NCBI RefSeq assembly: GCF_037996645.1
Contig: NZ_JBBMXV010000002.1
Span: forward strand, 62,001 to 126,000
DNA: 64,000 nt
DNA from: Halalkalicoccus tibetensis
GTDB taxonomy: Archaea; Halobacteriota; Halobacteria; Halobacteriales; Halalkalicoccaceae
Reading direction: 5' to 3'
Shown here piece by piece: positions 20,873 to 38,866 of the stretch (position 1 is the stretch's first letter; the number at the start of each line of letters is the position of its first letter). The notes beneath the pieces were generated by a model that saw nothing but the letters and a program-made list of their open reading frames with translations, was not told the DNA's origin and did not search any database. The position numbers were made by a program, and so were the translations under genes.

Positions 20873-22030
20873 TTACTCGACGTAGTCGATGTCCTGGAGC
20901 TGGCCACTGGAGGACGTCTCCTTCTGGTCCTCCTCGCGGCCGTAGATCTGCGGGGAGTCGACGCCCGTGACGACGATCATCGTCCGCATCGAGCCCTCGA
21001 GCTCCTCGTCGACGGAGGTCCCCCAGATGATGCGTGCATCGGGGTCGATCCGCTCGTAGATCTCCTCGACGACGCCCTCGGCCTCCTCGATGCTCATGTC
21101 GTTGCCGCCGGTGACGTTGACCAGCGCGGAGTTCGCCCCCGAGATGTCGACGTCGAGCAGGGGGGAGCGAAGCGCCGACTTCACCGAGTCCTTGGCCTTC
21201 GACTCGGAATCGCTCTCGCCCAGGCCGATCATGGCGACGCCGCCCTTCTCCATGACGGTACGAACGTCCGCGAAGTCGAGGTTCACTAGACCAGGTTTGG
21301 TGATCAGCTCGGTGATGCCCTTGACCGAGCGCATGAGCACCTCGTCGGCGACCTTGAACGCCTGGCGCACGGGCAGCTTGCCGACGGCGTCGAGCAGGCG
21401 GTCGTTGGGGACGACGATCACGGTGTCGGCGACGTCACGGAGCCGTTCGAGGCCGGCCTCGGCGTTCGTTCTCCTGACTTCGCCCTCCGCGGTGAACGGC
21501 GTGGTGACGATGGCGATGGTGAGCGCGCCCGACTCGCGGGCGGCCTTCGCGACCACCGGCGCGGAGCCGGTGCCGGTGCCGCCGCCCAGGCCCGCGGTCA
21601 CGAACACCATGTCCGAGCCCTGGATCGCGTCGTTGACCTCGTCCTCGCTTTCCAGCGCCGCCTCCTCGCCGACTTGCGGGAGCGAGCCCGCCCCGCGGCC
21701 GCGGGTCTTCTGCTCGCCCAGCAGGATCTTGGTGTCGGCCTCGATCTCCACGAGGTGCTGGACGTCGGTGTTCGCGGCGACCAGCTTCGCGCCGTGGATA
21801 CCCTCCTCCTCCATCCGGTTGACCGTGTTGCCGCCGGCACCGCCACAACCGACCACCGTGATGTTGGTCTGGAGGTCCTCCAGGACGTCGCGCAGCTCCT
21901 CGTCGGTCATCTGCCCCGACTGGCTGACCTCGGGAGCGACGCCGTCGTCGTCACCGCCGCCGTCGTCCGGTCCTGCCGCCGCCTGCTCCTCCTCGTCGTC
22001 TTCGACGGCGTTCTGAATGATCGAATCCAT
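20873..22030 (-). CDS. ftsZ1: Cell division protein FtsZ1
   Basis: This 385-residue tubulin-like GTPase has the nucleotide motifs [13 protein letters not shown], the tubulin signature [10 protein letters not shown] and the T7 synergy loop ([15 protein letters not shown]). The [16 protein letters not shown] start matches FtsZ1 of haloarchaea. TATA-like GGTATATTACGG (minus strand, about 22044-22055) lies 14-25 nt before ATG 22030, so the longer frame to 22087 is unlikely to be used. The acidic N-terminal tail and C-terminal IDYVE tail flank the GTPase. In haloarchaea FtsZ1 assembles first and stabilises the division ring. Two unrelated plus-strand genes now separate it from secE. Confidence 0.94.
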
Positions 22031-22055: not shown

Positions 22056-22100
22056 TGGTAATCATTGTTCCCTTTGACGTCCGACACGCGTCCGACCGGT

Positions 22101-36601: not shown

Positions 36602-37747
<1,146 letters not shown>

Positions 37748-37750
37748 CGA

Positions 37751-37930
37751 TCACACCTTCGCCCATGTCCGTTCGGACCCTTGGGCGTCCTGGCTCACGC
37801 CCCGTTCGTCGAGCATCTCCCGAACCGCGGCGCGGATCGCCTCGCTGCGGTTGGGGAACTGCCCCGTCTCGACCATCTGTTCTACCTCTTCTATCTGCTG
37901 TTCCGGGATTCGCAGTGTCACACGTTCCAT
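37751..37930 (-). CDS. cdrS: CdrS, short ribbon-helix-helix cell division regulator
   Basis: This 59-residue MetJ/Arc-type DNA-binding protein has the strand [23 protein letters not shown] and helices [18 protein letters not shown]. In Halobacterium CdrS is co-transcribed with ftsZ2 and controls cell-division genes. The same order and 3-nt spacing occur here. The ATG at 37930 is preceded by a roughly 115-nt stretch rich in GTAAGAC repeats. Confidence 0.92.
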
Positions 37931-37945
37931 GGTATCTTCCCCTGG

Positions 37946-38080
37946 CGTAAGACGAGGACCGGATCGGCGGCCATCGTGTCTTACACAGCAGCCAGACCCG
38001 CCCCATCCGTGACGAGTGAGTGGCTGGTGCGTAAGACGTGTCTTACATGGCAACAGGGTGACCCCGTAAACTATTAAAAC
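37946..38080 (-). promoter_or_regulatory. cdrS-ftsZ2 promoter with GTAAGAC inverted-repeat operators
   Basis: On the minus strand, TTTTAATA (38071-38078) is a TATA box, predicting transcription start near 38047. A perfect 16-bp palindrome, GTAAGACGTGTCTTAC (38031-38046), covers that start. Further copies are GTAAGACG at 37946-37953 (plus strand) and CGTGTCTTAC at 37975-37984, in inverted orientation with each other. Inverted short repeats are what dimeric RHH proteins bind, so CdrL and/or CdrS probably act here. Confidence 0.75.
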
Positions 38081-38099
38081 TACCGGCCGATGTACGACG

Positions 38100-38582
38100 T
38101 CACCGGTCGAGGACGTCCGCCGCGGGCGTCCGACGCCCGCAGGACGGACAGAACGCCCAGTCGGTACGCAGCTCGACACCACACTCACAGAGGGCCGGCT
38201 CGTCGGCCTTCTCGCCGCAGTTCGGGCAGTAGACGTGATCGTCGTCGAGCGTCTCGCCACACTGGGCGCAGCTGTGCTCTCGGGCGGGGGCGGAAACGGG
38301 GGTGTCGTCGGCCGGTGGCCCCGGGTCGGCCGTCCGTATCCGGTCGTCCTCGACCGAGACGGTGATGTTTACGTCCGTTCCGTTCCCGAGCCGTTCGTCG
38401 ATCCGCTCGTCGATCCGGTCGGTGATGAGCGTGTCCAGCGACCCCGACCCCGTCGGCGCCCCGACGGAGTCGGAGCCGAAGTACGCGCGGAGGGCCTCGC
38501 GCATGACCTCGCTCTTCGAGGCGTCCATCGCCTCGATGCGGGCGACGAGGTCGTCGTCCGCGCGGAAGGTGATCTTGCTCAT
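38100..38582 (-). CDS. cdrL: CdrL, RHH regulator with double zinc ribbon
   Basis: This 160-residue protein has an N-terminal RHH domain ([35 protein letters not shown]), a linker, and a C-terminal double zinc ribbon with four Cys pairs (CAQC, CPNC, CECG, CPSC). Its place directly upstream of cdrS-ftsZ2 matches the long partner CdrL described in Halobacterium. ATG 38582 follows ATTATAG and CAAATACTC AT-rich elements. It probably represses or activates cdrS through the GTAAGAC palindromes. Confidence 0.88.
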
Positions 38583-38724
38583 CGACTATAATTCCATAGC
38601 GAGCCCGAGTATTTGAACGTTTAGGCTCCGCGTCGGACGGGCGTCGGTCGCGGGTCGAACGCGGCAGTGGCGTCGGGCGAATAACAACCCTTAAGTCCGA
38701 AACCGCATGACCAGTAGGTGCTGC

Positions 38725-38798
38725 CCGCCCTTAGCTCAGACTGGTAGAGCAGCCGACTGTAGATCGGCTTGCCCCCCGTTCAAATCGGGGAGGGCGGA
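38725..38798 (+). tRNA. tRNA-Tyr (GTA)
   Basis: This 74-nt gene folds as a complete cloverleaf: acceptor CCGCCCT/AGGGCGG, D-stem GCTC/GAGC, anticodon stem GCCGA/TCGGC with loop CTGTAGA (anticodon GTA), T-stem CCCCG/CGGGG with TTCAAAT, and discriminator A. There is no intron and CCA is not encoded. TATA-like CTTAAG lies about 30 nt upstream, and TTTTA follows at 38812. Confidence 0.95.
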
Positions 38799-38866
38799 CT
38801 ACCGTTGCGACCTTTTACGGCCGTCGGACCTCCAGCGACCGCCACCCGATAGGCATGATCGTCGGC

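Follow-up and report, generated by a model that had tools for sequence, protein, structure and literature searches.

A heptad array at the cdrS-ftsZ2 promoter as a strongly supported candidate operator for the control of FtsZ2 supply in haloarchaea

The control of FtsZ amounts in archaea is poorly known, and the cdrL-cdrS-ftsZ2 locus of Halalkalicoccus tibetensis raises the question of which DNA words, and which proteins reading them, could set the supply of FtsZ2. We studied this locus in a 64-kb window (the whole stretch of DNA that was analyzed) and in other archaeal genomes. The initial annotation had proposed that GTAAGAC repeats upstream of cdrS form the operator of cdrS-ftsZ2, next to two genes for ribbon-helix-helix (RHH) proteins, cdrL and cdrS. 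Both protein assignments are supported by profiles (RHH_1 and NF058555, respectively). CdrL combines an N-terminal RHH domain (RHH_1, 20.8 bits; cut-off 20.5) with a C-terminal double zinc ribbon (DZR, 31.9 bits; cut-off 27.3), and its gene lies immediately 5' of cdrS; CdrS passes the curated NF058555 cut-off, and the distance of 3 bp between the cdrS stop and the ftsZ2 start is compatible with cotranscription. The strand residues R3-T5-R7 are found in CdrS of 143/143 haloarchaea and also in other orders, and K3-T5-R7 is invariant in CdrL; in RHH proteins, these beta-strand residues are expected to contact DNA.

A stretch of 169 bp separates cdrL from cdrS and contains the TATA box, the operator and two leader heptads (Table 1). 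The operator had been described as a perfect 16-bp palindrome; it consists instead of two perfect 7-bp inverted arms around a non-palindromic 2-bp centre, GT/AC, and the cdrS-ftsZ2 strand reads GTAAGACACGTCTTAC, the reverse complement of GTAAGACGTGTCTTAC, at 38046-38031. Two further half-sites in the leader had also been claimed, and these are indeed present, the word GTAAGAC being read on the plus strand at 37947-37953 and on the minus strand at 37978-37984. An overlap with the transcription start agrees with the distance of 33 bp between the 5' end of the TATA box and the 5' end of the operator, but the start site itself is predicted only. It should be noted that the window contains four GTAAGAC words in all, counting the two operator arms, and that 17 of 100 shuffles reach this number, so the count in 64 kb is unremarkable. 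Window-only statistics cannot tell these motifs from chance; genome-wide and cross-genome results carry the argument.

Table 1. Features of the cdrS-ftsZ2 and ftsZ1 loci, in window coordinates.
Feature	Positions	Strand	Description
Primary candidate operator, GTAAGACGTGTCTTAC on the plus strand	38031..38046	-	Arms GTAAGAC and GTCTTAC separated by 2 bp; on the predicted cdrS-ftsZ2 start site or immediately after it
Leader heptad GTAAGAC (third)	37978..37984	-	+62 from operator start; base of proposed inner RNA hairpin with operator right arm
Leader heptad GTCTTAC (fourth)	37947..37953	-	16 nt ahead of cdrS ATG
Weak heptad GTCGTAC, 1 mismatch	38092..38098	-	Upstream of TATA box
Predicted TATA box TTTTAATA of the cdrS-ftsZ2 promoter	38072..38079	-	
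cdrS, 59-aa ribbon-helix-helix protein	37751..37930	-	NCBIfam NF058555, 114.6 bits (cut-off 100); Pfam RHH_1
ftsZ2, tubulin-like division protein	36602..37747	-	Profile matches
cdrL, N-terminal ribbon-helix-helix and C-terminal double zinc ribbon	38100..38582	-	
Probable CdrS-type box GTCGGACgcgtGTCGGAC, minus strand	22079..22096	.	Before ftsZ1, 48 nt from ATG, upstream of TATA-like element
ftsZ1, probable CdrS-controlled division gene	20873..22030	-	Same window as cdrS-ftsZ2
Degenerate CdrS-type box, 1 mismatch	38632..38649	.	~67 bp before cdrL ATG, between cdrL and tRNA-Tyr gene (38725-38799)

No second match to the 16-mer, at two mismatches or fewer, was found anywhere in the 3.6-Mb genome. 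A scan of a contig collection with the same 16-mer returned matches that, among those listed, were mostly unrelated and largely bacterial, with one Halococcaceae contig among them. The general form GTAAGAC-N(2-6)-GTCTTAC was found exactly once per genome in 141/145 Halobacteriales genomes from 13 families, with every copy that we mapped lying ~33 bp past the cdrS TATA box; a control motif had one match each in two of the same 145 genomes. We extracted 143 haloarchaeal cdrS upstream regions, in which exact heptads number 574 compared to 5.3 in shuffles, although many of the genomes are related and the counts are not independent. The exact pair is present in 140 of these regions. The spacer of the best pair is 4 bp in 115, 5 bp in 19, 3 bp in three and 2 bp in six of all 143; the window's family has the 2-bp spacer, and most other families have 4 bp, i.e., an 11-bp register. 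In 93/140 genomes, the TATA box is preceded by an additional exact heptad. Four genomes are without the exact pair: one has cdrL and an operator with a degenerate right arm, two have one mismatch each in the pair, and the fourth is an 81% complete assembly in which cdrS was not found.

The GTAAGAC repeats before ftsZ2 are therefore conserved across the order, and the opposite outcome, a motif that is not conserved, is clearly contradicted. This inverted repeat is fixed in position and specific to the cdrS-ftsZ2 promoter. In Halobacterium salinarum, CdrL ChIP-seq yielded a single reproducible peak, which lies in the region upstream of cdrS-ftsZ2 (PMC7439475). The view of the motif as the cdrS-ftsZ2 operator is thus carried by its single copy per genome, its fixed promoter position, its order-wide conservation and the CdrL peak region; the part that did not find the same backing is CdrS binding, as the cdrS promoter is not among the 18 CdrS ChIP sites of Haloferax volcanii, which were obtained with a plasmid-expressed bait carrying an N-terminal FLAG (PMC8406309). 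Taken together, these comparisons strongly support the motif as real and as the best-supported candidate operator of cdrS-ftsZ2, and it is very probably the switch by which small DNA-binding proteins set FtsZ2 supply.

Related words are found outside haloarchaea. In cdrS leaders of 40/40 genomes from other orders of the phylum, we detected GTCNGAC words (83 sites versus 1.4 in shuffles), and adjacent heptads have a start-to-start distance that is a multiple of 11 bp in 50/55 cases. This is the whole-helical-turn spacing of RHH-type arrays, to be set beside the 4-bp spacer of most haloarchaea and the 2-bp spacer of the window's family. GTA-type words (GTATGAC/GTCATAC) already occur in some of the cdrS leaders outside haloarchaea. 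CdrL has been reported solely from Halobacteria and as universal there, and we follow this report in treating the 40 other genomes as lacking it (PMC7439475). Since GTCNGAC arrays are present at cdrS in orders from which CdrL has not been reported, the operator is apparently older than CdrL.

The element GTCNGAC-N4-GTCNGAC is the probable CdrS box. It is found in exact form in 30/46 haloarchaeal ftsZ1 promoters, 45-49 nt before the ATG, and the published position of the H. volcanii CdrS ChIP site at ftsZ1 is -50 (PMC8406309). The ChIP motif of that species is symmetric and lies upstream of ftsZ1, hisB and other genes (PMC8406309); the box inferred here was derived from comparison, and it agrees with the ChIP motif by position and targets, not letter by letter. 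Genome-wide, the box was detected in 58/59 genomes, with zero to seven copies per genome, compared to three control matches in total. There is no GTCNGAC-N4-GTCNGAC match in any of the 143 haloarchaeal cdrS promoters, and the GTAAGAC and GTCNGAC words are near-exclusive to cdrS and ftsZ1 promoters, respectively. The usual 7-4-7 geometry of the cdrS operator is that of the CdrS-type box, with outer triplets GTA instead of GTC; the operator has an invariant A at heptad position 4, whereas the ftsZ1 boxes are free there (A18, G15, C15, T12). At cdrL, a best CdrS-box match within one mismatch was found in 40/135 promoters, and the degenerate box suggests that CdrS may control cdrL as well. Because the boxes lie upstream of promoters, their position is the one expected of an activator, and CdrS would then activate cdrL.

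Several other occurrences of these words were recorded. A PAC2-family gene and a bactofilin/DUF5800 pair follow the other two exact boxes of the H. tibetensis genome (loci L385 and L386, positions 1501-1518 in each), and a PAN-like ATPase gene lies near the box in L386. The bactofilin neighbour could, as a guess, correspond to HVO_1611, a CdrS ChIP target. In another genome, an exact CdrS-type box is located ~130 bp before the frame start of hisB, which is a published CdrS ChIP target (PMC8406309). Leaders of one family (f7) have an additional CdrS-type heptad, GTCTGAC or GTCAGAC, between the two leader heptads.

Which protein reads the operator can be approached through genomes that have one regulator and not the other. 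Co-occurrence of the operator with CdrL is not strict: in seven genomes of five genera, neither tblastn nor a profile search nor inspection of the region ahead of cdrS revealed CdrL, and the primary operator pair is exact in 7/7 of them. Contrary to the reported universality (PMC7439475), cdrL appears to have been lost in these genomes. When CdrL-less genomes were set against CdrL-bearing relatives, heptads were fully kept in three of five pairings (28/28, 21/21 and 21/21), and other leader positions are 71%, 50% and 52% identical, respectively. In the remaining two, 17/21 and 22/28 heptad bases are identical; the primary pair is still exact there, so the differing bases belong to other words or stem from the alignment. 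No replacement RHH protein with a CdrL-type strand was seen among the best profile hits examined in the CdrL-less genomes. We consider it reasonably probable that the operator is shared, with CdrL as its usual occupant and reader, and CdrS as the ancestral and residual reader.

It is rather unlikely, on the same evidence, that the operator belongs to CdrL only, i.e., that the cdrS promoter was captured by a duplicated RHH regulator and that, with C changed to A in each heptad, it is shielded from CdrS, which retains GTCNGAC. The two ChIP data sets fit this reading, as CdrL is seen at the cdrS upstream region alone (PMC7439475) and CdrS is not listed there (PMC8406309); so do K3 in CdrL versus R3 in CdrS, the near-exclusive distribution of the two words, and the third heptad, which has the exact sequence in 102/133 CdrL-bearing genomes versus 1/7 of those lacking CdrL, the latter fraction being confounded by shared ancestry. 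However, a CdrL-only operator is difficult to reconcile with the intact primary pair in the seven CdrL-less genomes, or with GTA-type words that already exist in non-haloarchaeal leaders. Equally doubtful is autoregulation in which the haloarchaeal operator is read by CdrS, like its counterparts in other archaea, while CdrL competes with CdrS or depends on it for recruitment. Its attraction lies in the GTCNGAC arrays at cdrS in the 40 genomes of other orders, the survival of the operator after CdrL loss, the CdrS-type heptad embedded in f7 leaders and the common box geometry; nevertheless, the cdrS promoter is missing from the CdrS ChIP sites (PMC8406309), and the fixed A at position 4, free at ftsZ1, suggests another reader or a stricter demand.

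The leader was also analyzed as RNA. The cdrS leader folds better than shuffles (z = -3.4), and the flanks of the operator right arm and third heptad are complementary above permuted partners (0.605 versus 0.491, exceeded by none of 2000). With one genome per family, flank pairing is 0.625 versus 0.445 (median p 0.003); shifted and outer-side flank controls show no excess pairing, and the effect is not accounted for by a common flank preference. The inner hairpin is more stable than hairpins with shuffled loops (mean z -2.4). RNAalifold on a cross-family leader alignment, in which the leaders align poorly, paired only the two arms with each other, which is trivial, and no Rfam family was found in the leader. 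The covarying flanks are suggestive of two heptads pairing in the leader RNA, and a hint of post-transcriptional control of the cdrS-ftsZ2 operon has been published (PMC8303175). It is possible, if somewhat improbable, that the heptads double as a CdrL/CdrS DNA operator and as stems of a conserved leader hairpin, which would couple transcription of the division operon with its translation; the GTC-to-GTA switch would then record a new RHH regulator joining an ancestral, self-controlled division gene. That the heptads are mainly stems of a structured 5' leader controlling translation or stability of the cdrS-ftsZ2 mRNA would accord with the folding, covariation and hairpin results and the published hint, but it is very unlikely: the words themselves are invariant and do not covary, heptads upstream of the TATA box in 93/140 genomes are outside the transcript, the 11-bp periodicity in other orders and the related ftsZ1 boxes point to DNA, and the cross-family fold adds only arm pairing. 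A transcription factor unrelated to CdrL and CdrS would explain the persistence of the motif without CdrL and its absence from the CdrS ChIP list, but such a reader is highly improbable given the CdrL ChIP peak in the region (PMC7439475), the geometry and word in common with the CdrS-type box, and the profile hits examined in CdrL-less genomes, among which no RHH protein has the CdrL strand.

With a shared operator as the preferred reading, we propose the following model. The operator would be an array of 7-bp words bound by RHH dimers; the main pair lies on the predicted start site, other words follow in the leader and, in most genomes, others precede the TATA box. Its ancestor would be a GTCNGAC array, probably used by CdrS before the rise of haloarchaea to control the operon that encodes it; the haloarchaeal lineage would then have replaced GTC by GTA as the outer triplet of each word. 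In most species, CdrL, encoded just upstream, would be the usual occupant, and CdrS would be able to bind, too. With the main pair located over the predicted start site, a bound protein should hinder initiation and thereby limit both CdrS and FtsZ2. The GTCNGAC-N4-GTCNGAC boxes that precede the ftsZ1 and probably the cdrL promoters would be the sites of action of CdrS, which would close a feedback loop. Positions alone suggest the signs, negative for cdrS-ftsZ2 and positive for ftsZ1. Occupancy of the cdrS upstream region by CdrL (PMC7439475) and of ftsZ1 by CdrS (PMC8406309) is taken from the literature, and from the sequence comparisons we infer the assignment of proteins to heptads, the repression and the loop.

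The gain is a concrete, near-universal haloarchaeal operator together with a probable CdrS box, and a possible wiring in which CdrS acts on ftsZ1 and cdrL, and CdrL and/or CdrS act on cdrS-ftsZ2. The single-base difference between the words bears on how two related regulators stay separate. Bacterial RHH operators (NikR, MetJ, omega repressor) likewise consist of short repeated words read by beta-strand residues, but their half-site spacings differ from that of the cdrS operator; NikR is a weak sequence relative of CdrS. In Sulfolobales, aCcr1 and SegB are also RHH regulators of division or segregation genes; however, their targets differ (cdvA and segAB), CdrS and CdrL are only weakly similar to the aCcr1 family, well below its cut-off, and the SegB site is TCTAGA-S-TCTAGA (PMC12284271). 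The CdrL-cdrS-ftsZ2 locus of Hbt. salinarum has the same genes in the same order, with CdrL bound upstream of cdrS-ftsZ2 (PMC7439475); an operator sequence was not found in the text of that paper, and the present analysis adds the operator sequence, its array and its distribution.
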